A stretch of 64,000 nt of DNA from Antedon mediterranea (lineage: Eukaryota > Echinodermata > Crinoidea > Comatulida > Antedonidae), in the NCBI RefSeq assembly GCF_964355755.1, contig NC_092673.1:25611001-25675000 (forward strand). Direction: 5' to 3'. Every line of letters starts with the position of its first letter. Position 1 is the first letter of the stretch. Made by a program: the position numbers and the translations under genes. Positions 7,194-64,000 of this stretch are shown in pieces. The notes beneath the pieces were generated by a model that was not told the DNA's origin, did not search any database, and was given only the letters and a program-made list of their open reading frames with translations.

Positions 7194-7530
7194 AGCTTGG
7201 TTTCCACTAGGACGCAACGTAAGGACGTAGACGCAACGCAAGCGAGTTGACCAATGACAAGCGACAGTTCGAATAATTCATCTGTTTTTGGTCAAATCCC
7301 TTAAGCGTGGTTCCCACTAGCGACGCAACGCAAGGACGTAAAGCAACGCAAGTGAATTGACCAATCACAAGCGATGGCTTATTCGCTTGTGATTGCTAAC
7401 TGTCTATAACTTCGCTTGTCATTGGTTAAAACGTTTGCGTTGCGTTTACGTCCTTGCGTTACGTTCTAGTGGGAACCACGCTTTACGTTGCGTTACGTCG
7501 TTATGTTGCGTTTCTAGTGGGAACCACGCT
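7194..7530. mobile_element. Harbinger-like MITE interrupted by another copy
   Basis: The left part 7194-7300 starts AGCTTGGTTTCCACTAG and the right part 7486-7530 ends GTGGGAACCACGCT. A second complete MITE plus one TTA duplication sits between them. Removing the insert restores a continuous family sequence. The outer flanks TAA and GTA are degenerate. Confidence 0.8.
7304..7482. mobile_element. Harbinger-like MITE nested in a sibling copy
   Basis: A complete 179-bp copy bounded by AGCGTGGTTCCCACTAG and CTAGTGGGAACCACGCT, with TTA on both sides (7301-7303 and 7483-7485). It lies inside the older copy 7194-7530, so the family has inserted into itself. Confidence 0.88.
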
Positions 7531-12800: not shown

Positions 12801-15800
12801 GAGACTCTCCCAGAGGATTCAGTCCAGAAATATAATCGGCACACCAAGAGACAATCCCTTTCTCATTTCAGCATACATAGGTATGTGCATTGTATGTTCA
12901 CAGGACCTACATCTTTATGTCTTATCTGAAGTACGAGACAATGTAAGTACTAAATGATACCTCAAGCATGAAAAGCAAGTCTATCACATAAGATACATGC
13001 AATGGTTGCCCATTTATTTTACTATGAAATGATGTGCATTGTAGTATTTATACAAAGTGTATGCTAATCCCTGGAAACATAAGTCATTTAATGCCACACA
13101 TCGTCGCACAAGGGCGTAGCAGTGGGGATGTAACACAGGGCAATATACTAAATCACTAACAACTTGAATACCTTAACCATACCTTCAGTAAACAGGATAT
13201 TTTCCAGAATTTCAATAATTGGATAAACCGTAAGAGGATAAGTAAAAGCCACACCAATACATATTGTCACATTCGCAATGTAGGAAAACACTGTGTTTGC
13301 TGGAAGATTCTGAATAAGGATCTGTTCAACATCATCTCCATACTTCAAGTATCCGAGAACCCCAAGCGAGCCTAACATTACAAACAAAAGCATCAGTGAT
13401 CCATGCAGGAACGATGGGTATTTTGGCCGATTTTCAGCCATACTGGATTCAATTGGTATTATCTGTAATGATAAAAATATATATAAGATTTATTATCAAC
13501 TTTCATCATGCTGATTGTATAAAGAATATCATTGTGATTTTCATTTTTAGCCTATACATTACATCAGGCCCAATTTTCTTGTACTACTTTATTAAAAAAT
13601 GTTATGATATTATGTTATTAAAGATTTTATGTGTTATTGAAACCACAATGTATTGTATAGTCATGATTGGGCCTTTTTTGATGATTTCCTTCATTGGACC
13701 ACACAGTTACTAAATATACAGTATATTTACACAGTGTATATATCCAGTATACATACTGCACACATATCTGCAGTACAGTATACACAGTATATAGGCAGTT
13801 AGTATACTGTGTATGCTTTTAATATATTTTGGGCATATTTAAATAATGTTTATTCTACTAAGGCTAAATGTTGATTCTTTGGATACAGATTTAACAATGG
13901 TTCTTAATCTTTCTAACAATATTTTGCTTAGTTTTTTTATTATTTCATGGTTGAATGACTTACAGTTCCGATTCCTTCATACATACAGGAAACTGCACCA
14001 AAAAAAACAGGAAAGGTTGCAAACTTAAAATATTCTACACTGTCGTCTACTGCAAAACCTAAAAAGAAAAAACATTTTAGTGGAGACTATCGGCATAGTA
14101 AACCGTAAAAGTTTTAAAATTTCCACAGTTGACCATGCCGATAGTCAATATCAGGCCTTTTCTTTTGAGGTGAGCGAGTGCGATCACTCACCTAACACAC
14201 TTTATCTACAAACGGCACACTTACATCACCCCTGAATATATTGAGGAGTGCAATTTGTAGCACACCTACAATTTTAAAAGAAAAGGCCTGCAATATTTGG
14301 TGTGGTTGCTATCGCCATGGTCGATCATACGTAAAACATATTGTTTCGTATCGAAAAAGGTCAACAATTCTTCTTAATTCTGTTGTCTATCGGCAGAAAC
14401 ATGTGCAAAGTCAACCATGCTGATAGACAACTTTACATTACATGCATGGTCAACTGTGCTGATAGAAAATAATATATTACGCACGTCAGTTAAATTTCAG
14501 CATAATTATTTTTCAATAATAATCATTATCAACATCAAATCATTTTTATTTGGTTTTAAAATAATCACTGCATTGATTACCTTTAATTAGTGACGTCAAT
14601 ACAACTCCATATCCTAGAAAGATACTGATGTTTGCTACGACGCTGATTGGTCCCATACTCCTCACATTCCGTAATAACACAAACAATAAAAACAATGGCA
14701 AAGGAAATAACACTAAAATAGGAAAAGCTGGAGCTGTAGTCACTCGCGCATACGGCTGCACATCAACGATTGTATTATTTTTCTTCTGACTTTGTAGCTC
14801 ATTTAAAGATGTTTCCGAAGTTTGGTTCACAAATGGAAATAAATTTGTTTGTAAAGTATTTCCTAAAAAAATCATATATGCAATGCAGAAAAAGAATTGT
14901 GTGAAAAAAAGTGCAAAGTTGACAACATAAAGCCCCCATATTCCCAGGGACTTCCGCGCAATGTCTCCATAAGTAAGATGCCGTTCCAATCGTTCACGTA
15001 GCTTTCCAATTTTCGGTGAGGCAACATCGTGTATTCCTTGCTTTGAGACAAATTCATTGATGATTTGGTCGACCACTAAATATTTACATTTGACGATAAG
15101 TTGACAACAATGATCTGTTACGATAGTAATTACAAGTAAACCAATGAGGCCAAGCTGAAAAATGTAAGGCACCAAATTTGATGAGCATTATAAATACAAT
15201 TTACAGATAATGAATGTAGTAGTAGTACAGATATATTCAATATACAGAAACATTAGAATATCATTTAAAGATGTATTGTACCCAAAATCATGAAAATAAA
15301 GATTTATAAAATCAGATTTTAATAGTCAATTTTGCAGTTTTATTCACTTCCATAGAAAAAAAGGGATTTTACTTATAAAAAGACAAAATGAACAGTTGAA
15401 TTTTAATTTTCAAATCAATGTCTTTTTTTTCAGGTAAATATTTTTACAGTTACTTCGATCCAATTTTTGGTCAAAGTGAATAACTTTTATGTGATATTAA
15501 AATGGCATATTCAAAACAAAAAAAATTGTAAAAATTATTTTTTAGGTGGACAATATAAAGTTTCAATTTAATATCAAAACTCTACATTTTAGTTTGGGCA
15601 AGTATTGCAATTTACTGTAGAGTCTTTTTGTATGTATTTTAAAAGAAACCAGTAAGAATAATACATGTTGTAGTAAAATAGTCATAAACAACCCTAGAAA
15701 TTATAATTTTGTTCAATGAATAAGCTAATTTGATGACTTATTAAAAGCTATAGTAACTATGAAATTCTTCGAAGGCATAGTTTTTTTTTTTTACACATTT

Positions 15801-36500: not shown

Positions 36501-39500
36501 TAGTTATCCAAAAAACTGTAATTTAACGCAAAATATAGTCAGATGTGCAGCTGCCAATGTGTTTTGGTTGAATTTAACCATTTGTTTTTTCATTTTATAA
36601 GTGAAAACATTATTTTTCTTTTTTTTTTCTAAGGAAGTGATTAACTTTATTAAAACTGCAAAATGGCCTATTCAAAGTCTGACTTAATTAATCTTAAATT
36701 TTCATCTTTTTGGCGGACAATACATCCTTATTAGAGGTATCCACTCCTTTTATTTCAACCAAATCTTCGGCTGTAGTTTTAAGTTTTTATTTAAATTAAT
36801 AAAATATGCAATTTTTATAACGCTATTATTGTATTGTTCCTGAAACCTAAAAAGTTACATTAATCTACAGTATACTGGTACTGGTACTGGTTCAAATAAC
36901 CGTCTCACAGAGACATCTGGTAGCCATTGACTTGAAGTTGGCATTTGGATGTGTTACTTTTAAATGTAGGCCTACAGTATGAGAGTGACTACTACCAAAT
37001 TACACAGTCACAAAACAACTTATAAAACAGTTCATATATACAGTTAAAACATTGCTGGGAATTATAAATTTCTGTTGAAGCAGGCTCTAATGAAGTTGCA
37101 TCTAGTAAGTTGACTTTGTTGTACAACTCTATCAAGTACTGATGGTATCTTCTGACCTCTTCGTTTACTTTGTGTTGTGTGAAAAGTAAGAATTTTTGTA
37201 GGATCTTCATTTTCTTTTCTAATTACATGTCCGATCCAGTTGAATTGTTGCTTGTAGACATATTCTTCTAGCGGTTGACAGCCAGTAATTTTGTAGAGAT
37301 CGTCATTATCAATTACGTAACGCCAGTCTATATAGTTTTCATCTGTTTCTTCATCTGAGGATATGTCTACATCGTTTGGTGGGCAGACTCTTTGAAAGCC
37401 ATTCACTAGCATTCTTCTTAGGAAGGTTTTGTATGTTGTGCTAAGTTTGGACATTTCACTTCCTGTTGCCCTCCAAGCATGGCAACCATAGGTGAGTCTA
37501 CTCCTAACTAGACCATTAAGAAACATCATTCTTGTTTGTAGGTGAATCGTTCTGTTGGTAAGCAATGCCCTATTCTCTGCAAATGCTCCTTTGGCTGAAT
37601 TGATTCTGTATTTTACTTCTTGATCTCCAATATGAACATCATTGTAGGTAGCCCATACACCAAGGTATCTAAAGTGTGTTACGTTGTTAATGTGTACGCC
37701 GCCAATTTGTATGATGCATCTTGGGTATTCTTCAACTTCCTCTTTCCAGTTCCATATAATGGTTTCTGTTTTGGGGGCACTAATTCTTAGACCAAATTCC
37801 AGACAAACTTTATTCAAGATGTTCACAATGGTTTGCAGTTCTTCTTGTGACCAGGAGCTTACAGCAAAGTCGTCAGCATAGCCACTTTCAAAGTCGTCAT
37901 AGATGCCCCTTGATGGTGCTTTACATCTTTGAGCACGATTTGTAGCTTCAATAGGAATTAGGTATTGTATCATTAGGCCATCCAAACTAGCATCTTTACA
38001 GCGTTGTTTGAACACTCTAATAACGTAATCAAAATATTGGTTAAACATGCTGGTACTCTCAATACCACCCTGTCGCACCCCAGAAGATGTTTCGAACTTA
38101 TCATCACTCGGATCGTCGTCAGCAAGGTATGCTTTCGTTGAGCTGTACAGTGATTGTATAATGTCAATCATAGTAGTAGACTGGTTTAAGTGAAACCTAT
38201 TACGAACGCTTAGGAAAAGAAGATTACGATTCACATGGTCGAATGCTGCTGTTAAATCAATGAAGCATGTATAGAGATTTGAGCGATACGCAATTTCCTG
38301 GATCTGCTTGATTACATATATAGCATCATTGCACCCTCTGTTGGACCTGAATCCAAACTGTGTGCGTAGAAGTTGACTTTCATAAAAGATGGAAAAACGT
38401 GAAAGAATGATAACCATAAGTATTTTTGAAAATGTAGACCCAATCGATATTCCTCTATACATTGATGGATCAAGTGGACTGCCTTTTTTTTTCCAAATGG
38501 TTGTTAATTTGGACAGTCCCCAATCACTTGGTACTTCTTTCGTTCTCCAAATTTCCTCAAACAGTCTATGTACATGGTCGACGAATACTGGGTTCTCTGT
38601 GGCGACTTGCAACATTTCAGAAGCGACATCTAGGGTAGCTTTGCGACCTTTTAGATGTCCGATTGCATCAATAATTTCTTTCTTGGACGGAGGTTCATTG
38701 TCTATCTCAAATTCTGGTTGTCTCAGGTTGATAATATATTCTGGAGGTGTGCTAATTTCATCTGGGATTTTAAGGCTAGATTGGTCTGGATTAAAGTGAT
38801 CTTTAAAGTGTTCACGTAATCCAGGACATTTTATAGGCTTTGGTGCTTTTCTTATAACATCACCGTGCTCCTTAGCTTTTATCCATAAATCAAATATTTT
38901 TCTATTTTGGTGGGCTTCATTTAACTTGCTTGCTTCTTCATACAAATATTCATTCCGTAGTTCCTTCACCCTTATCTTAATTGCTTTCTGCATAGCCTTG
39001 ATCTCCTCTTCTTTGTAGGTAACTGTGCTTTTGTTAATATTCTTTCTTTCTTTTATAAGCTGTTGTAGTCTTTCATCACCATCCCAGGGATGAGCATTTT
39101 GGTTTCTTGTTTTCTTCGGGACTTCTTCAACTGCCTTATTTAGCACTGTCATAAGTGTTGTATAGCGCTCAGTTGATGTAGTGGTTGTTGTCTTTTCAGG
39201 GGAAGTAATTTTATTAATTTCTTCTATCTTTGTTTTAACATTATTTCTTACTTCTCGATCTTTAATTTACTCATGTTGGCTCTCTTGCTCTGTTTTTTCT
39301 TTTTATGCTTCTTCCACCTGGCTGCTTTGTTGGCTGGTGTTGTCATATTACTCACAAGGATTCTATGATCCGACGAAAGATAATAGTTGTTATAGACTCT
39401 TGTGTCAGTAACATACTTCCTCAACCAGTGATCACATATGTTGTAATCTAGTATTTTCTTTGTAACACCATCGTTGCTATGCCAAGTGATCCGATGAACG

Positions 39501-44630: not shown

Positions 44631-47597
44631 TTAAATATTTCTATTGTTATAATATTGCTTTAATCTCTGTTTAAACAAACTTAAAGTGGGGGATTGTTTT
44701 ATATAGTCTGTTAAATTGTTCCAAATATGTGTTCCTTGGTAGGAAATACATTGCTGTCCGACTTTGGTGCGTTTTAGTTGTGGACAGTAGTTTGACCTGT
44801 TTCTAGTTGAGTAATTATGGAATGAGGCAGATGTACTAAATAAGTTATTAAATGATTCAGGTAATAGATTATGTTTATATTGATACATAAATATAGCAGT
44901 GTGTTTTGTATAAAGGTCAAAAATATTTAATGTTTGGGTTGAAATAAAAAGTGGATGAGAAGGATGCATAAAATGAACATGACAAATATTTCTAAGTGCT
45001 TTTTTCTGGAGAATATGTATACGGTTTAAGTTTGTAGCAGAAGTAGCACCCCATACTGTGATAGCATACGTTATTCTAGGTAATATAAGTGCATTGTATA
45101 CCGTTAACAAGATTTTACTTGATAACATAGACTTCACTTTGTTTAAGACACCAATTATTCTAGAAATACTGTTTGCTACCTCATTTACATGAAAATTAAA
45201 CGATAAAGTTTCATCCAGAAATAAGCCTAGAAATTTAACTTCAGTAGCTTTTACTATACATTCATTTCCCATCCTCAATTCTAGTGAGGTAGTGTCAGCT
45301 GACTTATTTCTAGCCTTAAATATAACATATTTTGATTTGTTTACATTTAGCGTTAATTTGTTAGCAATAAACCAGTCCGAAAGTATAGATAACTCCTGGT
45401 TCATTGTATCAAAAGCTTGAGTAATATCATTGTGACTATAAAACACATTTGTGTCATCTGCATACATAATCATGTCTACATGGTTACATGCTAGACTAAT
45501 ATCATTAATGAATATAAGAAATAATAATGGACCCAATATGGATCCCTGAGGAACTCCAGTGTTTACTCTCATTTTACTAGATGCAGTATTAACAATAAAT
45601 GTGTATTGTAGTCTTTTTTTAAGATAGTTTGAGAACCAGTTTAGCGGAACTCCTCTTATACCATAAAATCTTAACTTATCTAATAATATATCATGATCGA
45701 TTGTATCAAACGCTTTTGATAAATCAAGGAAAACTCCTAGTGTGAACTCTTTATTCTCAATAGCGTTTGTGATTTTTTCAATCGATTGTATTAAAGCATG
45801 ACTAGTTGAATGGTGTTGTCTAAATCCATACTGTGTTTTACTCAGTACGTTATATTTTGAGAGGTAACAAATCGTTTGATCATACACAATCCTCTCAAAT
45901 ATTTTGGAAAAAAGGGGTAAAATGGAAATAGGCCGATAATTATTTATATCGGAGATGTCACCATTCTTAAATACCGGGATAACTTTAGCAATTTTTATAT
46001 CAGCCGGGACACAGCCCGATGATAATGACGTATTAATAATATGCAATAAAGGTTTTAAAATAAACGGGGAAGCAGATTTTATGAGTTGGGCACTTATACC
46101 ATCATGGCCAGGAGAAGTATTCTTTGTGTTTTTAATATAGTGGTTAAGTTCATGTTCAGTAACAGGCTTAAAAAACATTGAAGAGGTAAAATTTCCCTTT
46201 AAGAAAGTTCTGTGGGTGATTTCTTCATTTTGAGATTCATGCCTAAATTTATTATTTAGTTTTTCTCCAATATTAATAAAAAAAGAGTTGAATGCATCAG
46301 CTTTCTCATCATTATCAGAGAAAGTCTCAGTACCCAATTTTATTTTTGTAGGCAAATTGGTAGTCTTTTTCCTACCCATTATATCATTTAGGATTGTCCA
46401 CGTTTTTTTAATATCTTGTTTATTTCGTTCAAACTGGACCATATAATATTCTTTTTTCCGATTTCTAATAGTAGTGGTTAACTTGTTTCTAAAATGTATG
46501 TACGTACTTTTATTAGTAGTGGTGTTATTTTGTTTGTACTTTTTATATAATTTATGTTTTTGAGAGATAGCTCTGGCAATTTCAGCTGTGATCCAAGGAG
46601 ATTTTAACTTGTTCGCCTTATTTCTAATTCGTTTTAAAGGGAAACAATTATCAATTGTTTTATTTAAAGTGTTTGTAAAATTTTGATAAGCAACATTCGC
46701 ATTATTTGAGAATAGCACATCATTCCACTGATTACTTTGTAATTCTTGCAAAAAATACTCCGTTTGTTGAGGAGAGTATTGTCGTTTATATACAAATCGA
46801 GGATATTGCTTATTATGTTTTTCCAAAGTATCTACACAGAATATTGGGAAGTGATCAGAAATATCAGTAATAAGTATTCCACTTTTAAGGGACGTAGTAA
46901 AAGAATCGATGTTGCAATAAATGTTATCAATTATTGAAGCACAATTATCGGATATTCTAGTAGGACTTTTTATGATTGGCTGAAATGACTGAGAAAATAT
47001 TGTGTCTAAGTGTGATTGGATAGTGTTGTCGGTAGATTGTTGGAGTAAGTTTATGTTATAGTCTCCCACAAGGTAAGCTTTCTTTTTTTCTAGATTAATC
47101 ATTTGCATTACACATGTTAATTCATCATCAAACTTTTGCAAGGAACGTGAGGGTGGTCTATAAACTATACCACAAATAACATTATTTCCTGATTCTAACT
47201 CAATCTCAATAAAAATAGTCTCTGCTTCAGTCATACAAGATGACAGATCATTTCTAATAATATATGTTAGTTTGTTGGTAACATAGAACGCTACCCCACC
47301 ACCTCTCTTATCTTTCCTATCATTGTGAATCAAACTGTAGCCTGGTAACTGGTATAGATTAATATTATCTTTTTCGGTTAACCAGGTTTCACTGAAGGCA
47401 ATAACGGAGAAGGCATGTACGAGTGAGTCTAAATAGTTTGAGATTAAGTCAAACTTATTAACAACACTACGACAGTTTAGTCCAAATATAGAAAAGTTTG
47501 ATGATAAATTAGAATGTTCAAGTAAAGAAATTAAGTTATCTTCGTTAAAATATTCTGTGCTCACATTTACATTATCAAAAAGGTCACATTCAAACAT
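44631..47597 (-). CDS. LINE ORF2: AP endonuclease plus reverse transcriptase, 988 residues
   Basis: The N-terminal endonuclease (residues about 35-255) shows FGLNCRSV, FSETWL, GIVYRPPS, LVGDYNIN and ITDISDHFPI. The reverse transcriptase (about 480-760) shows KNTSPGHDGIS, NYRPISILPLFSKIFE, GVFLDLSKAFDTIDHDILL, GVPQGSILGPLLFLIFIND, MYADDTNVF and FLGLFLD. The C-terminus has ISYQGTHIWNNLTDYIKQSP. The order and motifs fit the Jockey/CR1/L2 group. All catalytic residues I can recognise are present. The product would nick the target and prime reverse transcription there. Confidence 0.95.
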   Translation of the reverse strand: MFECDLFDNVNVSTEYFNEDNLISLLEHSNLSSNFSIFGLNCRSVVNKFDLISNYLDSLVHAFSVIAFSETWLTEKDNINLYQLPGYSLIHNDRKDKRGGGVAFYVTNKLTYIIRNDLSSCMTEAETIFIEIELESGNNVICGIVYRPPSRSLQKFDDELTCVMQMINLEKKKAYLVGDYNINLLQQSTDNTIQSHLDTIFSQSFQPIIKSPTRISDNCASIIDNIYCNIDSFTTSLKSGILITDISDHFPIFCVDTLEKHNKQYPRFVYKRQYSPQQTEYFLQELQSNQWNDVLFSNNANVAYQNFTNTLNKTIDNCFPLKRIRNKANKLKSPWITAEIARAISQKHKLYKKYKQNNTTTNKSTYIHFRNKLTTTIRNRKKEYYMVQFERNKQDIKKTWTILNDIMGRKKTTNLPTKIKLGTETFSDNDEKADAFNSFFINIGEKLNNKFRHESQNEEITHRTFLKGNFTSSMFFKPVTEHELNHYIKNTKNTSPGHDGISAQLIKSASPFILKPLLHIINTSLSSGCVPADIKIAKVIPVFKNGDISDINNYRPISILPLFSKIFERIVYDQTICYLSKYNVLSKTQYGFRQHHSTSHALIQSIEKITNAIENKEFTLGVFLDLSKAFDTIDHDILLDKLRFYGIRGVPLNWFSNYLKKRLQYTFIVNTASSKMRVNTGVPQGSILGPLLFLIFINDISLACNHVDMIMYADDTNVFYSHNDITQAFDTMNQELSILSDWFIANKLTLNVNKSKYVIFKARNKSADTTSLELRMGNECIVKATEVKFLGLFLDETLSFNFHVNEVANSISRIIGVLNKVKSMLSSKILLTVYNALILPRITYAITVWGATSATNLNRIHILQKKALRNICHVHFMHPSHPLFISTQTLNIFDLYTKHTAIFMYQYKHNLLPESFNNLFSTSASFHNYSTRNRSNYCPQLKRTKVGQQCISYQGTHIWNNLTDYIKQSPTLSLFKQRLKQYYNNRNI

Positions 47598-48488: not shown

Positions 48489-49310
48489 TTATTTTAGTGG
48501 CTTGTATGGCTTACCGTCGATAAACAGTTGTCCATTTCTGAATACGGGCTTACGTTTTTCGGCATATGCCTGCGCCATAATTGTAGATAATTCTCTCTTT
48601 TTCTTCATGTCCGCGTCAGGTAAATCTTCAGTAATAAATACGTTTTGTGATTTACTTTTTAATTTTACTTTTCCTAGTTTTAGGACTTGGTTTCTTTGTG
48701 GACGGTACAGAAATTTAGCTATTATATGCCTCGGTTTGTTATCTAAACGGCGTTTCCCGGTGCGATGGCAATTTTCAATTTCGATGTCCTCGAGTCCGAG
48801 TTCTTCGCGTAGTACTTTTTGCAATAAGTCCTGGGTGTTTTCTGTAGCATTTTCTATAACTCCTCCAAACCTTAGATTAAAACTCCTACTGTATCTTTCT
48901 TGTTTTAGGATTGAATTTTCCATGTCCGCCATTTTATCCTGATAAGCCGCCATTTTGTTTTCATACTCCTCCATTTTCTTGATTTCATTTCCAATTTTTT
49001 TTATTTCTTCCTTCGTTTTGTTAGTTGAATCATGCGCATATTCCACACTTTTTTCTAGATCTTTGACAGTTGTTTCCAGTTTGGTAAGCCTTTTGTTGTA
49101 GTTTTTTTGATTTTCTAGGACTTTATCTAGTTTACCATTAAGTTGTTCTGATAGCCTACCTAGTTGATCGGCGAGCGTTTGAGTTTCCCCCTGTCGGTCG
49201 CCGGAGGCTTCGATTGGATCATCTGCTTCTAGACTTTCGGAGGGTCTAGTTTTTCTTGTTAAGTCAATTGATTTAGTATTTGCCCTAGTAGGCCTATTAG
49301 TCGCCATCAT
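48489..49310 (-). CDS. LINE ORF1: coiled coil plus RRM-like RNA-binding protein, 273 residues
   Basis: The N-terminal 60 residues are polar. A long heptad-rich coiled coil follows (about 60-150, with LADQLGRLSEQLNGKLDKVL and TKLETTVKDLEKSVEY). Then comes an L1-ORF1-like RNA-binding region with RYSRSFNLRFGGV, ENCHRTGKRR, PRHIIAKFLY and NVFITEDLP, and a basic tail FRNGQLFIDGKPYKPLK. By analogy with L1 ORF1p it should trimerise, coat LINE RNA and act as a nucleic-acid chaperone. ATG at 49310 is preceded by a short leader. Confidence 0.88.
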   Translation of the reverse strand: MMATNRPTRANTKSIDLTRKTRPSESLEADDPIEASGDRQGETQTLADQLGRLSEQLNGKLDKVLENQKNYNKRLTKLETTVKDLEKSVEYAHDSTNKTKEEIKKIGNEIKKMEEYENKMAAYQDKMADMENSILKQERYSRSFNLRFGGVIENATENTQDLLQKVLREELGLEDIEIENCHRTGKRRLDNKPRHIIAKFLYRPQRNQVLKLGKVKLKSKSQNVFITEDLPDADMKKKRELSTIMAQAYAEKRKPVFRNGQLFIDGKPYKPLK

Positions 49311-49861
49311 GCAGTCTTCTTTTAGTTAGTGTATACAACTTTTAAAAATAGTAGAGTTTGTTGGCTATATATTACCTTTAGTCTGAATTTAAGATCTTTT
49401 TCCCTGCGTGTAAAAGTTAGGTGTTGTCTCTACTCGCGCATGCTCACTACACATTAACACATAACATTAATGATAATTGGTGAACGCTTTTGATATTGAC
49501 TATAAATAAACTTGAATGTTATAGAAAAATATCAGAAAATGTCGTTTAATGTTGAAATATGGAATCTTAGTAGACTTCATTTCTTGAAGTATATTGTTTT
49601 AATTTTTTTCCAAGATATTTTGAATTCATAAGGGATAACCGAATTAATTTATTTAGCAAAAAGTATAATAAAATTGCTCATAATGTTTTGAAGTGAAGAT
49701 AAATAAACAACAATTACATTTTAAGCTCTTTCCGATTACGTGATCGATGAATAAATAATTTGACCATCTTCGACCAATACTGTATAGTGTTAATTATAAG
49801 CTATGACATTTTAATCTTCTCTCTTCAACAACGGAAATGAAAAGAGAGTAATCAAAAAACC

Positions 49862-52819: not shown

Positions 52820-53503
52820 ATGGCGTCGTATATTTTAACCGTGTTATTTTGTACATGTAAGTATAACAATTTGTTAACAGTTTATCAATGTTGTATTTGG
52901 TATTATTAAGTCCTTAGATTTAATAAAAAGGAAAATGATGACAGTGTAGGATGAACCCGACTACTTAATTATCTTAGTATTTTTGAAAATGTTGGTTACT
53001 ATAGGCCTATATATACTTTTTCAGTTTATGTATCGTTTTAAACAGAATTGCAGTCAAACTACATTTTCTTTGTATTTTTACGAAGACAAATACATTTTTG
53101 TAGATAGGGTCTAGAGAATACGTTGAAATAAAATTATTATTGTTAATAGTTATGAAGTAGGCCTACAGAAACTTATCTATTTGGAACCGCATCCCAAAAT
53201 TTAATTTAATGATAAAGAATGGATATTAAGTTTGCAGTTCATTGAAGTTTGCGTTTTATTTTGTTTTATAACCAACCGTTTTAAGGCGTAATTCCGATGA
53301 TAAAAGCGTCAGTCGTAACAGAGGAGTCAGTCGTAACAGAGGACTCAGTCGTAAAAGGGGCAAAAGTCGTAACAGAGGGGTCAGTCGTAACAGAGGACTC
53401 AGTCGTAACAGGGGGAACAGTCGGAACAGAGGGGTCAATCATAACAGAGGGGTCAGTCGTAACAGAGGAACCAAACGTGACAGACGTAACAACGGCAAGT
53501 ACT
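52820..53503 (+). other. Exons 1-2: signal peptide and repeat-coded Thr-rich segment
   Basis: Exon 1 ends in phase 1 at the GTAAGT at 52857. Exon 2 starts at 53286 and completes the split codon as Cys, keeping the hydrophobic core unbroken. Cleavage is expected near IKA-S. Exon 2 then encodes about ten VVTEGS-like hexapeptides, likely O-glycosylated in an extracellular protein, and ends in phase 0 at 53503. Confidence 0.72.
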
Positions 53504-56500
53504 GTAAGTACCGATGCCTAGTATTTGTAGGAAGATGTAGTTTAATTTGTGTAAAGCTTGGTTCCCAGTTAAGAGGTAACGTAACGCAACCTACACAACA
53601 TAAGCAAATGCCCTTCCAATAATTGTGTTTACCCCCGCCTGCGTGTAATCAAACCTTTTTTTGAAGCACTGTTGCGTCGTCGGTTCACACTGCGTTGCGT
53701 TCTAGTGAGCAGGTACATCTCAAATTATTGCTGTCTCCGCCTGTGATCTATAGTATAGGCCTACTCCCGTATACACATGCATTTGGACAAATGAACATAA
53801 CTTGTAATTGAAATGGTACCGTAAAGCTTGGTTCCCACTAAAACGTAACGCAAGGACGTAAACGCAACGCAAGCGTTTTAACCAATGACAAGCGAAGTTA
53901 TAGACAGTTAGCAATCGCAAGCGAATAAGCCATCGCTTGTGATTGGTCAATTCACTTGCGTTGCGTTACGTCCTTGTGTTGCGTCGCTAGTGGGAACCAC
54001 GCTTAAGAGGTTTAGGTTGGATATTTACTGTACGCTTGTAACTGTTAATGGAAAGACACATACCATCATGATATTCCTTCGTTCTATAGTTACCAATGTA
54101 CATGATACTACTAGGTCATGGTATATCACCATAAGAACTATTTTATATTTTGTTTATTATTTATTATTGTTGTATTATTTTACTGGTTTACTGCTCTAGG
54201 ATCCAACTATTACTTTTACAAAAACTCACGGATCCCAATATATTGACGAACTTTACGTCGGTGGTGTTCTTCGAGGTAAAGTTAAGGTTACATTTCCCGC
54301 TGGACACACAAGTTCTTCGTTTAACTTGTATATATTTGCTTCAACTGAAGAGGGGATACAATTCGGAGCAGTTACTTCACCTGTCCTAACAACCAAGAGT
54401 ATTGGAATTACAAGCAGTCATCACGGCGTTAGCGACGTAAGTATTCTTTTTTTAATTTATTGTGTTTGTATTTTAAAGCGTGGTTCCCAATAGAACGCAA
54501 CGTAACGCAATCTACGCAACTTAAGAAAATGCCCTTCCAATAATTGTGTTTACTCCTGTGCCTCCTACGTGAAATCAAACCTGCGATGTTTGCAGCACTG
54601 TTGTCGTCGTCGTTCCCACTTGTGATTACAGCTTGGTCTCACTCTAGCGACGCAACGTAACGCAATCTACGCAACGTAAGAAAATGCCCTTCCACTCATT
54701 GGGTTTTCCCCCGCCTGCGTGAAAGCAAACCTACGATGTTTGCAGCAGGGTGTCACAAAACCTAAGATCACGAAAGCTAAGACCCCTTAGACCTAAGATC
54801 ACGAGACCTAAGACCTAAGATTACCAATAGTTCTCTTTCGCACCTGCCTTGTATTTTAACTCTAAATTTGTTGACCAACTTTCTCCTGAATACCACACCT
54901 TAGAATTAGCTTGAATGAAAAAGAATCAATAAAATAACAATAAATTCTTTAAATAAATGGATGATTTTACAGACTGTTTTGTTATCGGTTCCCAGTTTAA
55001 TACGCCTAAATTTAGTATTTTGTGGTATTATTGTGTAGTAGGAGAGATATTTGTTTATAATGTATAGGACAAAATCTAATTTATATTTTCATTATTATAT
55101 ATTAATTTTGTATTTAATTGTACTTTAAGGCAGGGCGCTGCAAAACCATGGCCATAGCATTGCGCAGGTTCAAGCATCTGTCGGATAAGGACTGTATACT
55201 GGAGGTCCGGTGTAAATCTAGTTTGCATGCCGTCCGGTGTACTGGTCTATAATTAGTCCTTATCGTCGTGGGTAGTCGAATGAGCGCCACCGCTTAAACA
55301 CGAAGGGAGTCTTGGTATAAAGCGCATTACAAATGCATCCATTACATTCTTATGCTTCTAATTATCTATCTGTAATTTCAGATGGGTATTTATTCTATGA
55401 GTGGATCGTCAGTTAATGTTTATGTAGATTCAAAGATTGTAGTATCGTTTGCAATGGCTACGGTAGACGATATTTCAGAGCTCAATGACGGCCAAATCTA
55501 CACTTGGTACGCTTCTTACACGTATAACGGCAATGAAATTAGAGCTTCTACAACTTTGACTGCAAATTTTTCTGTAATAGTAAGTTATTGTATTATTATA
55601 AATAAATTGTAATCGTTTTAAAGGACAACTCGACCGAGGAACATATTTTTACAATCGCGAGATTAAGGATATCGCGATGCACCTGTGACGTCACAGCAAT
55701 TTACTGCGACGGCCGGCTGTACGGCGAGCGCGTGCGGCGATATCCTTAATCTCGCGATGGTTCTGAAATCATGTACATCCCTAACACGTTGTTAAAATAT
55801 AGTCCTTGGGCAAGTTGTCCTTTGTAAGTTCTACTTGCCGGTTATCGAGAGTATGTTTTTGTACTATCCCCAACGTAAAACTGAATTATTAGAAAGCGGT
55901 GCCTATATGTCGGCATGATCAAGCGATTTGTGGTATATTTTGAAACACCTTAATAGAACGAATCAAGTAACAAACAAAAAACAATAATATTGGTTCACCT
56001 TTACCGTTAAAACATTATTAATAGATTTTGGGCTACAAAAAATTCTTTTCTTTTCAATAAAAATGACAAGTTTCTACAATATATAATTTTCAAAGGTTAC
56101 TCCAAAGTCGAGTTTGTGTTTGAGCTAACTGTTCTGAAATTGACCGTTTATTTTTATTTAAATAGATAGATAATGATATTAAACTAGACCTGGAACGTAC
56201 AGAGGGAGATCAAGTGATGCATCCCGGTGATAAAATGTCTGTTTTGATCACCGCCATCTTTCCTCAATATTTTTTCGGAAATATTCGACTAAAAGTGTCA
56301 ACAGAGTATGAAACTGACCCCGAGATACGAACATTTGGATATTTCACACAAGAACCACAACTACAGGATAAAAGTGGTGCAGATATGCGGGATACACACA
56401 GTTATATTGCGTCTACGGTAAGAATTTGTGAATTAAAATGTAACCTTACAAAGTATATTTTGATTTTGAATGCGCACCCCAAGGATGTATGCACACAATG

Positions 56501-59500
56501 TAAACACACAATACAGAAATTCCTTTTTTTTTATAAATAATTCCATGTTATTGTTTAAAATGGTAAAAGTTAAAAGCAAACAAATTGTGTGTTTTATGGT
56601 GTTTCCATCTCAACTGACATGCCTCATCGCAGACGGAAGGAACCCCTATCATCACTTTCGTTTCGCCTATATATTTGTCTTTTCTTCTAGCGATATAAAT
56701 ATGCTGCTTATACTCGAAGTGAAGCAGATTTTTCTGCAAGCCTCGCTGAAGAACGAATGGTTAAAATAGGGTTAACATTCATTTTGACTAACATGGAAGA
56801 TATACTTGACAATACGAATTATACTATGAATGCTACATTAACACAAGATGGCGAAATTCTAAAAATTGCTCAACTTAGCTTTATTACGAATCTTACTACT
56901 GAGGTATGAGATATTTAGTTTATTTTAATCTTACATACTAATAACACTGTCATAAAAGGATTTCTTTTGTTGAGCCTGGTTAGACCTTGGATGGGAGACA
57001 ATCTAGGATTATCGGGTGCTGTATATGGAGCTGGCATTTTAAATCAGCATTGCTGACACTTATGGCAGCCCCTGCATCTAGTATCTGCCTTTCCTCTGGT
57101 GAAAATGGGCACTGGACGAGAGAAGCCCTTGGTCAATGTTAGGACCAATCAAGGTGCTTTAAACAGTCCTGGCTTTGTTTGTATCAAAGCTGTTATAGTG
57201 GCGGTAATTATCGCTGTTGGTTTTGATTGAATAAAAAAAAAGAACATACCATTCACGTCTCTAACACATTGTCAACTTTCCAATAACCGAAATTGTACTG
57301 TACTGTACATTTGAATTATTGCTATTATTATTGCCTGAAGAATAGTGCAATCATGGTTTTTGTTAGCAAGAAGTGTCTTTTTTTTATGAACTCCATGCAT
57401 AGCTTCTTAAAATGAATCAATTCTAGTGATAATGTCTTCATTAGAACAATCAATTGTATACAAATAATGAATGTTTATGAGCCAAAGCCTACATTTTGAT
57501 TCACATTGATTAAAACAAGAACATTTGGTATTAATAATTATATTAAATATTATTAACCCATAATTTAAATTCCTTTCTGATCTAAATTATATCTCTCCAA
57601 AATGTACATCCATCGCGAAAACGTCATAACAATAACATTCGCGGCGCGAAAGTACAACATAGAATATGGCGCTGTTGTATTTTAAAAGCAATAGCATAAA
57701 AAACGAAAAAGGGTACTATTAAACGATCGTTTAATAGTGCGTACTATTGCACGTCATGTGACCCACAATCGTCTAATCAAATGACAGGAATTTAATTAGG
57801 TGTTATATAGTAAGTATTTTTTAGAAGTCAACATTGTACCATAATGGGGTAAAATCAATAATAATTTCATTCATTAATAATATATATTTCTTTTTTGTTG
57901 TATATATGTATTATGTATCGAAGGTCTATTGATATTGCCTTGGAAGGATAGTTCAAGCATAGTTTTTTGTTACCAAGGAGTGTAATTCTTTATGAGTATT
58001 TATCTGAAATAAATAATAAATAAACGAATTTATAATATAATTTTTTTTATTATTTTTCATTTGCCTTTAGGAGCCTTTTATTAATGCTACAGTAGATTTC
58101 CCGTCTGTTCTCTACTTTAACCAACCTGAAGCGATGTTAATAAATATAAAAGTTAAAGGAAAGTCAGCGCACTGGATTACAGCCTATGTTGACTTTAATG
58201 GACTAAATGACATTGTTATATGCCAGAAAACATTTTACAATATGGGAACCTTCTGTGCAGATTATAGATATATAGATATTGATTCAACAGCGTCGGGCGG
58301 TAAGAAGTACGACTTCGGGGCATTAATAAACTGCCGTAAGTTTTAATTAATTTCTACTTAATTCATCTCGTTTGAATTTATAAACTATGTCCCAATAATA
58401 TTATAAGCCGACAAGGAAGAAGAGGTTGGAACTGAGGTCAATCATTGGTACGCATTGCCATATGATTTGTTTAGTAAACGCAACAACAAAGTATCCCTGA
58501 GTGAGTGAGTGGCCGAGCGGTTAAGACAGTGGAACCGTAATTACGAAGCCAAGGGTTTGAGGCTCACTCACTCCATGGTTCTGGTGGTAGAACGAGTCTT
58601 CTCGGATAAGTACTATAAACCTAGTACATCTTTCGAGACGAGTAGGAGGGGTGGGGTAACCCCGGGGTTTACCCCGGTGTATTAGTACATCACAGTCACT
58701 AATAGCTGGGCTCTCTGAGAGACCAGTCTTTGACTGAAGAGGTCGCCCAGTATAAATAAAATATTCCATTCATACTTCAACATCTGTGCAAGTGTTTGAA
58801 GCAAAATTGAACAAGTTTTGGTCAAATAAGGACTTTAATATCATTCTGGGCTATCAGGCATAACTGATTGTGGGTGAAAAATTAGCCATGTTACCAACAT
58901 CATAAGGGTGTCAACAAACAGAGATTCTTGTATAAGGCATAATTGGTAGTTAAGTTTGTTTAGATCGGAGTTTATTTTTATATTTCAGAAACTGATTCTG
59001 ATGAAACGGAACTGGTTCTCTTTCTTGGACTTGTATTACAAAATAAAGTGACCAACGTAACAAACATCAACGTTACTATACATATAAACGGAGAGCCATT
59101 AGCATCGGACCGGGTAGACAGAGAAATACTAGTCGTCGGCTTGGAAGAAGAAAATGCTTACCAATTGGAATCCGTAAGATAAGCTTGGTTCCCACTGGCG
59201 ACGCAACGTAACGCAAGCTACGCAACATAAGAAAATGCCCTTCCAATAATGGTGTTTGCCCCCGCCTGCGTGAAATCAAACATGGTTGTTGCGCGTCAAC
59301 GTTAGCGTGTCGGCGTAGACTTTGACCTTTTGTTCACCCCGCGTACGTGTTGTACTATATTTTCCGATCCAGTGGTATTTTGCCTTGCGTTGGTTGTTGC
59401 GTAAAATCAAACTGATTTTATTTCCCGTAGCGATGTTTGCAGCACTGTTGCGAAGCGTCGATCGTCGGTACCTTTCGTCGATACGTCGCTGGGTTACGCT

Positions 59501-62500
59501 GCGCTGCGTTCTAGTGGGAACCATGCTTTAATACTAAGTTCCACCTGCATAGAGGTGGGCGTAGTGTTAAAATATATTTTTACACATGTTAGCCCGATAA
59601 ACACAGAAAATAAAGAAAGACCGATATTGGTTATAAGTGTCTAATATGAATGGCAAGTCGTTGTTGCAACACCTAAAAGGAGAACATTAAAAATGGAACA
59701 TAAACGAAAACAAAAATAATGAGGGAGAGGAGGGAAGGAAGTTGAAATTAGTTTACTTGTTGACGTACCGGTTGACAGGGTGATGTAAATAGGAGGAGAG
59801 ACGCTGTCAAAAGACGGGCGCCCCGCATTAATCTTTTTTTTGACACATGTGAGCCCGATACACACACAAAATAAGAAAGTATACTGGAAAGTTGTACCCT
59901 AAAAAGGGTGTCCTCTGAATAGGGTAGTCCCCAAAGAGTGGGTCGTCCTTATTCCCCTTGTTTGTTTTACAGGAAAGTGCTCCTTTAATATGACTAATGA
60001 TAATCATATTTATTCGGCAAAAGTTCTTAAAAGTACGTTTTACATTTCATCTTGCCAGGATCAAGTAATAGGCATGAGCCCAAACAGAAAACTGCTCTTA
60101 CTCCATCATTATTATAAAATTAATAAAAACAAAACAAAACAAAGTTATAATGGGATACACCAATTAAGAATAAGCTGCATTGAATAAACAATAGCCTATA
60201 AACAATTACAACATAATATTTTGAGATCAAATGTTTGGTGAGTTGGGCTTTTAAGTCTGAAATTATAGCTTTGTTTAATTTCATTGAGAAGTTGCTCCCA
60301 TAAACTAGGAAAAAAACAAACGATGAATTTAAAAATGTATTGGTCTTAGCCTTCCAATATATTAAACGCATGCATGTATCAAATTCACACCTCTCACTTT
60401 ATCTCACAAACTCATTAAAGGATGAGGGACAGATGCCATGCAATATTTTAAAGTTACCCAAAGGATGGGTCCTAATGTAGGCCTAGGTCCTTTGCTTTAC
60501 ACAATTGTTTTTTACATAACTGAATTTGTAGGGTTTTTCCGCTTCAGTATCACGAAGTATCATGAGAATAGATAGAAAGTTAACGTTTTTGTTTGTTGTT
60601 TAATACCTTATACCTCTTTTCTGAGGCATATGAAATTAATTGATAAATAAAGAAATCGGATTCTAAATCAGCTACAGCATGTGGTTGCTAGCGCCTTTTT
60701 AGTGGATATGCGCTATATAAATTATTATTATTACATCTATTTACAGTATGACCCTGACATTGAAGAACCAGTCGTGTCTTCCGTGTCATCAAGCTCGACA
60801 TCTGGTGATCGGAGAACTGTTAATTTCTATCTCTCTATACCCGCATATCAAAACCGCTCATACACACTAGTTCCGGAATGGAAATCACCGGAACTTGACA
60901 GCAGTAACTTAAGAATAACCTCAATAAGTAAATCTGATAACTTCGGACAAAATATCCCATGTGTAGATAGAGAAATAACTGAAGGAATTCCAGGCAGAAG
61001 CGTAATGATGGGTAGAATGATCAACTCTGGTAAGTTGTACAAAGTGTCATGTTTTTCTTTTCGCTTGGGGCCATTTATTTATTTATTTAGGCCTATTCTG
61101 TCTTTATACTGAATGAAACTTTCAGTGTTAAATCATTGATTTCAAACTGGTTCAGTAGAAAACAAATAAATAATACAAATGATTCAAAGACAACTAAAAC
61201 ATAGTAATTTATATTTATTTATTCACATAGGCCTACAAATAAAGTAAATATATGTAGATTTTGTTGTTCTAATTGACAATTGACAATAATTACATTTGTT
61301 TCAAAACTGTAGGTCATAATGAAAAAAAGTTAAACTGTTCCAATTAGATACGTCTGCATAGGCCTATATAAATAAGCAATATTGTTGTAAATTCGTATTG
61401 TAACATTTCTAATGGAAACATACAAATGATTTAAGTGTTTTCCATGATTATATGAGTCGGGTTGGTGAACATCAGTCCAAAATACGCAGAATTTTTTCCA
61501 AAATACGTCAAGTTGAGGGTGCTATACTAATCCAAAATACGCGTGTCTTTCCAAAATACGTCGACTTGAGGGTGCTATTCATTTTCCAAAATACGCGAAT
61601 TGTCCAAAATACGTTAACTTGAGGGCGCTATTCATTTTCCAAAATACGCGATTTGTCCAAAATGTGTCATATTGAGAGTGTACTGAATAAAAACAAATAT
61701 GTGCCAACATCAGTCAATAGACAGTGCCTATAATATAATAATGTCGGAACGATGTACGATTGCATTGCCAGACGTAGCTAGAAATGAGGCATAAACCGGC
61801 TAAAAACAGCATGTACAAGTATTGTCATAGGTGATGTGTTATATATTTGGTGATCTACAAAATTGATATTTTTCCCGAGCTCGATAGCCCAACATCGCTT
61901 TCAATTAATGGTTCATCTTTTCAATGTTGAAGATACAATTCTTTATAGTAATTTTTAAAACAGCCTCGCGTTTTGAAGGTTCGAATATTTTTTGGGAAAA
62001 TTTGCGTATTTTGGAAAACTGTGCCTTCAAGTTGGAGGGTATGTCGGATAACTTTCTTATTGTAGAAAATTAATAGCGCTACAAAAGTTGTTTTAAGTTG
62101 GATAACTCAAGTTGACGTATTTTGGAAAAATTCTGTGTATTTTGGACTGATAGCGGATAATAGTTGGATAACTTTCAAATTTTAGAAAATTAATAGTGGC
62201 CTCAAGTTGACGTATTTTGGAAAATTACTAACGCTCTCAAGTTGACGTATTTTGGACAAATCGCGTATTTTGGGAAATTAATAGCGCCCTCAAGTCGACG
62301 TATTTTGGAAAGACTCGCGTATTTTGGATTAGTATAGCGCCCTCAACTTGACGTATTTTGGAAAAAATTCTGCGTATTTTGGACTGAATTTCACCAACCC
62401 TATTGGATTATATCGGAATAGGCCTATAGAACATTTTGATTATCAGAATAATTCGGTTGAGTAATTAAAAAAAAATCATATTTCTATTCCTTCCGCCTAT

Positions 62501-63705
62501 TGTAAGGTGTGGCGCAGTGTGTTGGACGTTGGACTACTGATCGTGAAACGCATTGCTTGTATCCTTAGGCAAAATACCTTACTTACGTTTGCCTCTCTCC
62601 ACCCAGGTGTATACATGGGTACCCGGCTAGATTAAGACACAACTTTTTGATGATTACTAGCTGCATTATGGGAGTATGTTTCCATACGTGTTTGATGCAA
62701 AAATGACCGGAGTAATAATGTTCAGCGCTTAGAGGTTTCACAACATTAGGCGCTATGTAAATCCAGGATAATATTAATATAACTCATGCCCAATAAATGT
62801 GTGATGAATCGAACATTCTATACTATTTCACGTTTATATGTATTGTTATTTAATAGGATATGTTACCAACAATGGGAATTACAACAAAATGAGAATTAGC
62901 GTGACTGTAGAGCATAATATGTGCAATCTGCATCCGTCGGGCTCAAATGTATTCTATATACACGCCCATTATTCACCCACTCAGTCTGTAAAAGCTCAGT
63001 CATCTTTTACTTATAATCCAGACCCATCACCCGAGGTAAGCCTAATTTTGTTTTGAGAACCTGTATGCGCATTTGTGGCGTCCGTGTAGAGCAACTGGGG
63101 ACCGAGTTTTGAATACGTTAAATACGTTGGGGACTAACTAAGCCTAGCAACCCTCTAAATAATCTAAAAACAAATGTATAAATACAAATTGGACGCGGCA
63201 CAAGGACGTTAAAGTGGTTTGACCAATTATGACGCGTAGATCACCCAAACTATCGCTTGTGATTGGTCAACTCACTTGCGTCTACGCCTACCTCGTCGTG
63301 TTGCATCCAATGAAATGCAAGCTTAACAATATTATAAATTTACCTTTTCTCCTTGATATACTTGCTGATTTTACTCTCTTTTTCAGATCCCCGAAATACC
63401 TACACCGGATCCATACCCTTTGGAATGTTCACCGACTCCAGACGTTTTAATGTTTTCAAACGTGACATGCCGGATCATTTTATTGCTACGGGAATCACGA
63501 ACGTCTGTATCAGTTGAAGTTCGTCTTAGAGAGTCCGCTTCAGAACCTATTCTATTCCATTTTGTACAAGAAACGTTCGATGTCCATACAATTGGTGACG
63601 GTTTAGATATAAATGACACCATTTCATTTAACGTCGATCCCGATGAAGACGGGTCTGCTAACAAAAAACTTGTTATCGAAATAGGCCCAGTCAACAAACT
63701 TGAAT
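52820..63705 (+). CDS. Unrecognised secreted or cell-surface protein of two-exon modules (3' partial)
   Basis: Predicted exons: 52820-52856, 53286-53503, 54200-54436, 55382-55579, 56166-56417, 56691-56903, 58071-58335, 58989-59173, 60747-61029, 62857-63035 and 63387-63705. All have GT-AG borders and matching phases, about 795 residues so far. The start MASYILTVLFCTCVIPMIKA is a good signal peptide. A Thr/Ser/Val/Glu-rich segment follows, then modules of 145, 155, 150 and 154 residues and half of a fifth, each from two exons. The first half often has a G-x-V/K...FP core (GGVLRGKVKVTFPAG; PGDKMSVLITAIFPQ). The second half has alternating hydrophobic strands and N-x-T/S sites. This suggests beta-sandwich repeats, loosely like the DUF11-type repeats of bacterial surface proteins. 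Family and function unknown. No membrane anchor within the window. Confidence 0.78.
53309..53480 (+). repeat. Coding minisatellite, 18-bp unit
   Basis: About nine to ten units of TCAGTCGTAACAGAGGRG, each giving one S-V-V-T-E-E/D/G hexapeptide. Units vary at the last codons. All lengths stay multiples of three apart from small internal shifts that keep the frame open. Confidence 0.88.
53554..53710. mobile_element. Harbinger-like MITE, long subfamily, eroded
   Basis: AGCTTGGTTCCCAGTTAAGA to GCGTTGCGTTCTAGTGAGCA with the core CCTTCCAATAATTGTGTTTA. It lies in the second intron of the modular gene. Confidence 0.7.
53825..54003. mobile_element. Harbinger-like MITE, 179 bp, TAA duplication
   Basis: AGCTTGGTTCCCACTAA to CTAGTGGGAACCACGCT with TAA on both sides (53822-53824 and 54004-54006). 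Nearly identical in body to the 50648 and 6928 copies. Confidence 0.9.
54200..55579 (+). other. Module 1 of the secreted protein (exons 3 and 4)
   Basis: Exon 3 (54200-54436, 79 residues, phase 0-0) has THGSQYIDELYVGGVLRGKV then KVTFPAGHTSSSFNLYIF. Exon 4 (55382-55579, 66 residues, phase 0-0) has KIVVSFAMATVDDISELNDG then ANFSV with an N-glycosylation site. Together 145 residues. Confidence 0.72.
54477..54985. mobile_element. Two long-subfamily MITE pieces followed by a Mutator-like end
   Basis: AGCGTGGTTCCCAATAGAAC at 54477 begins one long Harbinger-like copy. A second begins near 54632 (GCTTGGTCTCACTCTAGCGA) and is cut at 54747. From 54748, GGGTGTCACAAAACCTAAGA to GGATGATTTTACAGAC matches the left end of the 20109 element for about 235 bp, then stops. 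All lie in intron 3 of the modular gene. Confidence 0.75.
55622..55821. mobile_element. TTAA-type MITE, AGGACAA ends, copy 2
   Basis: AGGACAACTCGACCGAGGAA to CAAGTTGTCCT. TTAA is on the left (55618-55621), but the right flank reads TTGT. The centre is the GAGATTAAGGATATCGCGAT hairpin shared with 10291-10498. Confidence 0.75.
56166..56903 (+). other. Module 2 of the secreted protein (exons 5 and 6)
   Basis: Exon 5 (56166-56417, 84 residues) has IDNDIKLDLERTEGDQVMHP then GDKMSVLITAIFPQYFFGNI. Exon 6 (56691-56903, 71 residues) has VKIGLTFILTNMEDIL and the N-glycosylation sites NYT, NAT and NLT. All boundaries are phase 0. Together 155 residues. Confidence 0.72.
56971..57243 (+). mobile_element. 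5S rRNA-derived SINE
   Basis: GTTAGACCTTGGATGGGAGA, then ATCGGGTGCTGTAT, closely follow the 3' half of 5S rRNA, including the internal promoter region. About 200 bp of unrelated body follow, ending in a poly-A tail (AATAAAAAAAAAGAAC). The 5S 5' half is missing. It sits in intron 6 of the modular gene. Confidence 0.82.
58071..59173 (+). other. Module 3 of the secreted protein (exons 7 and 8)
   Basis: Exon 7 (58071-58335) has NATVDFPSVLYFNQPEAMLI and three cysteines near its end (ICQKTF, TFCADY, INC). Exon 8 (58989-59173) has DETELVLFLGLVLQNKVTNV with sites NVT and NVT. The internal intron is phase 1, unlike modules 1-2. Together 150 residues. Confidence 0.72.
58500..58775 (+). mobile_element. 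tRNA-Leu/Ser-derived SINE
   Basis: GAGTGGCCGAGCGGTTAAGA is a close match to a tRNA-Leu/Ser A box, and GGGTTTGAGGCTC stands in the B-box position. The body runs to GTCGCCCAGTATAAATAAA. A second copy begins at 31375. In intron 7 of the modular gene. Confidence 0.75.
59182..59527. mobile_element. Long Harbinger-like MITE abutting a splice donor
   Basis: AGCTTGGTTCCCACTGGCGA to GCGTTCTAGTGGGAACCATG. It begins 8 bp after exon 8 ends, directly behind the donor GTAAGATA. The flanks ATA and TTA are imperfect. It is the longest copy (346 bp). Confidence 0.78.
60655..60746 (+). mobile_element. SINE 3' tail supplying the acceptor region of exon 9
   Basis: TAGTGGATATGCGCTATATA then AATTATTATTATTACATC is the common GCGCTATATAAAT-(ATT)n tail of tRNA-type SINEs. 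It ends only about 12 bp before the acceptor TTTACAG at 60740-60746. Confidence 0.6.
61454..62405. mobile_element. 952-bp foldback transposon built of CAAAATACG words
   Basis: The ends GAGTCGGGTTGGTGAA and, inverted, CAATAGGGTTGGTGAA are bordered by GATTATAT on both sides (61446-61453 and 62406-62413), a likely 8-bp duplication. The long arms repeat CCAAAATACG(C/T) and TTGAGGG(T/C)GCTATTCA at least four times per arm. No coding frame. Confidence 0.75.
62502..62780 (+). mobile_element. tRNA-derived SINE with conserved 3' domain
   Basis: GTGTGGCGCAGTGTGTTGGA starts a tRNA-like head. The body has CACCCAGGTGTATACATGGG and TACCCGGCTAGATTAAG, and it ends TTAGGCGCTATGTAAATCCA. This pattern is widespread in marine invertebrate SINEs. 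In intron 9 of the modular gene, close to exon 10. Confidence 0.72.
63187..63325. mobile_element. Eroded Harbinger-like MITE
   Basis: The core ATCGCTTGTGATTGGTCAAC, with TCACTTGCGTCTACG, matches the body of the 179-bp family, but both ends are lost. Confidence 0.55.
63387..63705 (+). other. First half of module 5 (exon 11), window edge beyond
   Basis: An Ile/Pro-rich opening (IPEIPTPDPYPLECSPTPDV), then LRESRTSVSVEVRLRESASE and SANKKLVIEIGPVNKLE. The donor GTACGT at 63706 gives phase 1, as in exons 7 and 9, so a partner exon is expected to the right. A weaker donor at 63710 is possible. No further exon is seen to 64000. Confidence 0.68.
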
Positions 63706-64000
63706 GTACGTAATTTTAAAATCACGTTCACCATTGCAATGTTTTTTTTGTATATTCATTTTTCATCCTGGATACATCCGGCCGAATGAGGACGCCTACA
63801 TATTATGTTAATCTATATTAGTATTTGCCAACTCCCGTCCAGTATCATCACGCAAAGTTTTGCTTCAAACTATTACAATTATTGATTTAAATTATTCAAC
63901 AATTATTTGTCCTGTTAAAGTGACAACATCGTGTGTTCACTGTTCAATTTTTTCCCGCATAAATCGTTTAGTTATTATTATTAGTCTGTCTGTTTGCTTG

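Follow-up and report, generated by a model that had tools for sequence, protein, structure and literature searches.

The stretch of Antedon mediterranea DNA analyzed here (64,000 nucleotides, G000:C4:25611001-25675000; hereafter the window, in whose numbering coordinates are given) rather probably covers the first half of a gene that encodes a large, secreted mosaic glycoprotein, whose modules belong to a family recurring alongside an Asp-box exon and which would have a role in extracellular adhesion or recognition. In the predicted order, a signal-peptide-like start and a short repetitive Thr-rich segment would be followed by a row of modules of ~150 amino acids (aa), M1 to M5, with a lectin nested in M5, and then by a further module-like unit (M6), an F5/8 type C domain, a kringle and an Asp-box-like C-terminus, the protein ending without a membrane segment. 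Membership of the module family appears statistically supported for M1 and M2 and weakly so for M3, and is indicated for M3 and M4 by an exact intron match to genes on another contig of the same genome (C9).

Rebuilt from the DNA, the gene inside the window has 11 exons (E1 to E11) at 52820-63705 on the + strand, which form a single open frame and are separated by introns that all carry GT-AG boundaries (10 of 10). M1 to M4 are 145, 155, 150 and 154 aa long, and the half of M5 lying in the window is 106 aa long. The introns entering M1 to M5 are in phase 0 in all five cases, and the E1/E2 intron, inside the signal-peptide-like start, is in phase 1. The inner introns, between the two halves of a module, are in phase 0 in M1 and M2 and in phase 1 in M3, M4 and M5. 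An earlier reading of the window made from its letters alone (the sequence-only reading) had proposed the same module lengths and two-block phase pattern, and our model reproduced them to the residue. The exons in the window are as follows.

52820-52856, + strand: E1, start codon and most of the signal-peptide-like start, ending in phase 1
53286-53503, + strand: E2, remainder of the signal-peptide-like start and minisatellite-coded Thr/Val/Glu-rich segment, phase 1 to 0
54200-54436, + strand: E3, first half of M1, phase 0-0
55382-55579, + strand: E4, second half of M1, phase 0-0
56166-56417, + strand: E5, first half of M2, phase 0-0
56691-56903, + strand: E6, second half of M2, phase 0-0
58071-58335, + strand: E7, first half of M3, phase 0-1
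58989-59173, + strand: E8, second half of M3, phase 1-0
60747-61029, + strand: E9, first half of M4, phase 0-1, with a GQNIPC motif resembling GSNIPC of a C9 module
62857-63035, + strand: E10, second half of M4, phase 1-0
63387-63705, + strand: E11, first half of M5, phase 0-1

The best phase-consistent exon chain at 53601-63800, a range that excludes E1 and E2, scored 189, versus 16 on the reverse strand. On five other 10.2-kb stretches, each tested on both strands (ten tests), no score exceeded 66; this maximum fell on the stretch and strand of a long interspersed nuclear element (LINE)-like open reading frame (ORF), where the opposite strand scored 54. None of 30 Markov resamplings scored above 7.8. 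The codon table and splice settings behind these scores were made with the same exons in view. In a held-out test, for which the codon table was taken from E3-E6 only, the sole stop-free frame ranked top of three in all ten later exons, and its score was positive in eight of the ten and negative for E13 and E15. The exon chain is beyond chance.

At the start of the gene, hydrophobicity over 19-aa stretches of the predicted protein peaks in a stretch that straddles E1 and E2. E2 further contains a minisatellite of nine copies of an 18-bp unit coding for a Val/Thr/Glu-rich hexapeptide, and its frame rests on the splice phases, because other frames of this exon are open too. The segment, which had been called mucin-like, is indeed minisatellite-coded, but the mucin label is loose, with 21 Ser and Thr residues and 2 Pro in 72 aa.

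Over the next 9 kb of neighbouring DNA, the predicted gene acquires 13 more exons and reaches a stop at extended coordinate 72455 (position in the neighbouring stretch, L001, plus 63799). The whole prediction thus comprises 24 exons and 1,647 aa with one stop and 26 N-glycosylation sequons. Beyond the start, these 1,647 aa contain no other segment of strong hydrophobicity, and the highest 19-aa hydropathy mean past residue 40 is 1.23, and the earlier proposal of a secreted protein with a signal peptide agrees with this lack of a membrane segment and with the signal-peptide-like start. The predicted exons beyond the window are listed below.

L001:211-534 and 890-1009: E12 and E13, C-type lectin, phases 1-1-1
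L001:1193-1409: E14, second half of M5, resuming in phase 1
L001:1876-2035 and 2888-3107: E15 and E16, predicted exons
L001:3512-3649, 3992-4179 and 4742-4931: F5/8 type C exons
L001:5475-5879: kringle exon
L001:6873-7029, 7370-7428 and 7944-8213: Asp-box-like exons, the last at extended coordinates 71743-72012
L001:8547-8656: last exon, with the stop

Three domains of the prediction exceeded their Pfam cut-offs, namely Lectin_C (residues 820-942, 38.2 bits against a cut-off of 22.6, E 2.7e-9), F5_F8_type_C (residues 1165-1302, 32.5 bits against 28.2, 1.1e-7, covering model positions 1-126 of 127) and Kringle (residues 1321-1392, 76.5 bits against 34.3, 2e-21). The Asp-box-like stretch in the last four exons stayed below the Pfam cut-off (BNR, 9.3 bits against 27). 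M6 begins within E14, covers parts of three exons and precedes the F5/8 type C domain. A strict architecture of two exons per module, as claimed in the sequence-only reading, is therefore found in M1 to M4 but not beyond the window, where two lectin exons split M5 and the next unit starts inside E14 and spans three exons. Classical C-type lectins bear EPN or QPD, plus WND, as their sugar and calcium motifs. None of six motif strings was found in the lectin domain (EPN, QPD and WND being absent), and because these classical sugar-binding triplets are lacking, protein binding or calcium-independent binding seems likelier than classical sugar binding. As for the kringle, the genome (G000, 354 Mb) yielded 72 matches over the Pfam cut-off among the 76 listed, many of them clustered, on C1, C3, C5 and other contigs; judged by these matches, it holds a large kringle set.

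The modules themselves matched nothing credible in Pfam, NCBIfam or PDB, and the C9 modules were likewise without a family above cut-off, so the earlier statement that the domain could not be named still stands. The titles and abstract openings searched in the literature contained no description of this module family. Scanning an alignment of M1 and M2 against bacterial/archaeal and viral contigs gave 34 and 28 pattern matches, respectively, and no relative. Searches of the crinoid's own genome with the modules returned the gene itself and two weak matches on C8 (E 5.45), and the surroundings of the first of these held nothing convincing. AlphaFold2 modelling of the half-module exon E6, together with three other second-half exons, gave a doubtful helix at a mean predicted local distance difference test score (pLDDT) of 65, a model of too low quality to bear on the beta-sandwich that the sequence-only reading had suggested from strand patterns.

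Evidence for a family comes from the Asp-box exon of the window gene at extended coordinates 71743-72012 and from its relatives elsewhere in the genome. This exon matches an exon on C7 (E 0.58 in the genome search, 4e-8 pairwise, z 12.5) and, more weakly, exons of two C9 genes, L009 (z 4.0) and L010 (z 3.0, p 0.011). A search with the C7 exon listed 25 places, including itself and the window gene, with many on C9, and the DNA adjoining two of the C9 places encodes modules of like style with clearer motifs. One such C9 module had 21 matches at 20 loci, and at all 20 an Asp-box exon lies downstream on the same strand, within 13 kb at 19 loci and at 21.7 kb at one (the lists were compared by eye). 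These Asp-box matches are individually weak (E 0.025-1.7), and it is their co-location with the module that carries weight. The window gene probably belongs, as a divergent member, to a larger family, with ~20 similar genes in the genome as judged from these matches. Furthermore, among 17 of the copies of this C9 module's exon, the median ratio of nonsynonymous to synonymous substitution rates was 0.17 over 136 pairs, the one pair above 1 coming from two near-identical copies. By this ratio, C9 module exons are evidently under purifying selection, and the domain is real, with no pointer to an arms race.

We compared M1 to M6 with seven C9 modules (K1 to K7), which are mutually related with a mean z of 7.2 over 21 pairs (minimum 0.8). 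Tested against 200 shuffles, a profile of the seven placed M1 (E 1.3e-5) and M2 (2e-4) clearly above the shuffled sequences, and M3, M5 and M4 weakly above them. Against 600 shuffles, M1 took the top rank and M2 the next with each of three profiles, and M3 came third with two of them. Pairwise, z exceeded 4 in 4 of 42 comparisons (M1-K1, 6.0; M3-K7, 5.4; M1-K4, 5.2; M6-K3, 4.4). The mean z of M1 to M6 against the C9 modules was 2.17, 0.91, 1.15, 0.73, 0.04 and 0.77, respectively, and that of the reversed-sequence controls was 0.31, 0.43, 0.29, 0.10, 1.56 and 0.59. M6 is also weakly like the unit that precedes an F5/8 C-like stretch of L009 (p 0.017).

Intron positions record a further resemblance. 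In one C9 gene (L032/L009), the inner intron of K1 and K3 is in phase 0 and lies directly before the D-x-G strand, and that of K5 and K7 is in phase 1 and lies directly after it; K4 has no inner intron, and K6 has one at a third position. The phase-1 inner intron of M3, M4, K5 and K7 splits the codon two places past the Asn of the G-x-x-x-N strand, which is an exact match (the M4 alignment and the K5 donor were read by eye), and GQNIPC of M4 fits the GxNIPC motif of the C9 modules. In M1 and M2, the phase-0 intron precedes the phase-1 site of M3 and M4; the inner-intron phases thus differ because the introns sit at two different places. Both inner-intron classes are probably older than the window gene, judging from their occurrence in the C9 gene.

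The phases also bear on the lectin. E11 ends in phase 1, as do the first halves of M3 and M4, the lectin exon pair follows in phases 1-1-1, and E14 restarts in phase 1, as do the second halves of M3 and M4. On the simplest reading, which we infer from this pattern, the lectin exon pair would have been inserted into the inner phase-1 intron of M5. The nested position is argued mainly from phases and order, since the similarity of E14 to its C9 counterpart exon is not significant (p 0.12) and the M5 intron sits two residues beyond the site used in M3 and M4. Tentatively, and at less than even chances, the modules could be taken as an undescribed extracellular domain family in ~20 or more loci, coupled to an Asp-box-like C-terminal domain, with a whole lectin inserted into the inner intron of M5 by 1-1 phase exon shuffling to give a domain within a domain.

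These last two observations, on E14 and on the M5 intron, weigh against the shared family proposed here, and so do several others. The C9 modules were hand-picked by eye, which favours a match, and the mean z over all 42 module pairs was 0.96. M4 and M5 were interleaved with the best of the 600 shuffles, M6 fell outside the listed best, and M3 to M5 were still among or below the shuffles after M1 and M2 had been added to the profile. The mean z of M5 was beaten by that of its own reversed control; of the five modules, M5 has the weakest support. The profile alignment places the phase-0 intron of M1 some six residues past those of K1 and K3, and aligns M2 only beyond the intron. One of the 20 C9 loci looks interrupted, with a stop inside its second piece, and the exon choices for E15-E24 were picked among alternatives, E18 for example having several candidate donors.

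Some of the exon pairs might not represent one repeated domain at all: M1 and M2, perhaps with M3, would be homologous, and M4, M5 and M6 would be unrelated beta-rich segments of similar exon length. All 15 pairs among M1 to M6 were near noise, both by Smith-Waterman comparison (the best, M1-M2, at z 2.0 and p 0.04) and by hhalign (probabilities of 0.1-1.2%), and the behaviour of M4, M5 and M6 against the shuffles and of M5 against its reversed control points the same way. However, the inner intron of M4 is identical in residue and phase to those of M3, K5 and K7, M4 carries the GxNIPC motif, and the intron of M5 has the same phase, though two residues further on. We consider this alternative improbable, while giving it some weight.

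A second alternative, put forward in the sequence-only reading, is growth within the gene by two rounds of exon-pair duplication, M1-M2 first and M3-M5 later. The phases do form two blocks, and E4/E6 alone stands out among 55 half-exon pairs (z 3.8). Yet the modules lack detectable mutual sequence similarity, and M1-K1 (z 6.0) and M3-K7 (z 5.4) exceed the best own-gene scores of M1 (2.0) and M3 (0.9), although the matrices of the two comparisons differed. Because both inner-intron classes (K1 and K3 in phase 0, K5 and K7 in phase 1) occur in a single C9 gene, duplication inside the window gene is disfavoured, and we regard it as unlikely; an older array containing two types of module gives the best account. 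Equally unlikely is a membrane receptor, adhesion G protein-coupled receptor (GPCR)-like or otherwise, with a membrane part that escaped the prediction. In its favour, the related Asp-box exon at the C7 locus precedes lectin, F5/8 C-like and EGF-like exons and a 7tm_2 region (1.9e-22), and adhesion GPCRs with a kringle reportedly occur in amphioxus. Against it, the predicted last exon of the window gene closes with a stop at 72455 and, on the same strand, the best exon chain did not extend into the next 31 kb.

Under the favoured interpretation, a secreted mosaic glycoprotein with modules of the C9-related family, the modules would serve as a spacer rod, and the lectin, F5/8 type C and kringle domains may bind a partner such as a matrix glycoprotein, a cell surface or a microbe. 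Extracellular adhesion, matrix or recognition proteins are typically built in this manner, as secreted chains with a Thr-rich start and a row of spacer modules ahead of three binding-type domains, and by this analogy the protein is likely an extracellular adhesion or recognition molecule. The sequence-only reading had suggested an adhesion, matrix or immune-type protein, a suggestion now backed by the lectin, F5/8 type C and kringle domains downstream. Many secreted mosaic proteins with unnamed spacer domains exist in invertebrate genomes. Here, intron position and phase would record a kinship of modules nearly erased in sequence and could help to define a domain family. If a 1-1 exon pair did bring the lectin into a module, this would be a clean case of domain nesting, and the members of the multigene family, provided that they act in recognition or adhesion, would be candidate immune or surface-interaction proteins.

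Several other features of the window were noted, mostly by eye. On the minus strand, two long ORFs at 37062-39266 and 44631-47597 (734 and 988 aa) are LINE reverse-transcriptase-like; for the second of these elements, the first ORF may be represented by a 278-aa frame at 48489-49325. Within the introns of the gene, an insert at 56965-57230 resembles the 3' half of 5S rRNA plus a tail, like a 5S-derived short interspersed nuclear element (SINE), and an Rfam gathering search gave no match in the window. Another insert, at 58499-58760, has a tRNA-gene-like beginning and is probably a tRNA-derived SINE; ARAGORN listed no tRNA in the window. The E9/E10 intron contains two tandem arrays with a 53-bp period (61476-61663 and 62179-62383), whose units look complementary and could form a large inverted repeat. 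Repeated words (GGTTCCCACT ... ACGCAACGCAA) occur in both orientations at 53560-54000, 54475-54740 and 59185-59530, like a short mobile-element family, and the word TAGGCCTA is found 27 times in the window where 0.6 occurrences are expected, an excess suggestive of an echinoderm or hemichordate. A search of G000 for COX1 gave no match. Exons at 13148-15187 on the minus strand encode a multi-pass membrane protein resembling an SLC36-type proton-coupled amino acid transporter.

Among known systems, CatSper auxiliary subunits share an Asp-box-like S-x-D-x-G-x-W motif with the downstream part of the gene by eye. This identity was not supported: the window gene has no Pfam CATSPER match, and CATSPERB_C, the one CATSPER family searched for across the genome, has its match elsewhere, at C4:8.91 Mb. 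The sea star footprint protein, an echinoderm adhesive, is likewise a large secreted mosaic with lectin and discoidin-type domains, but it has von Willebrand and EGF-type domains that were not found in the window gene, and it is not known to have a kringle. The C7 locus (L005-L008, C7:30057200-30093000, with its first 10 kb all N) contains Asp-box-like, SRCR-like, F5/8 C-like, several C-type lectin and EGF-like exons and then 7tm_2, the SRCR, EGF and F5/8 C having been recognised by eye alone, and is probably one or more adhesion-GPCR-type genes. It has the related Asp-box exon and partly the same companion domains as the window gene; unlike in the latter, a seven-transmembrane region comes after these exons, and no module was recognised in its readable part (the 10 kb upstream being N). 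The C9-type family (L009, L010, L011-L031 and L032) differs in that the L010-type module is a single exon, unlike the two-exon modules of the window gene, in that EGF- and cadherin-like exons precede the modules in L032/L009 (cadherin at 2.9e-4, below cut-off), and in that the one kringle place listed on C9, at 0.88 Mb, is far from the module loci. Common to this family and the window gene are modules of ~150-170 aa and an Asp-box-like exon; companion domains also lie downstream, with an F5/8 C-like stretch in L009 (4e-5, below the Pfam cut-off) and a C-type lectin in L010 (3.4e-17), and L032/L009, like the window gene, has two inner-intron classes.

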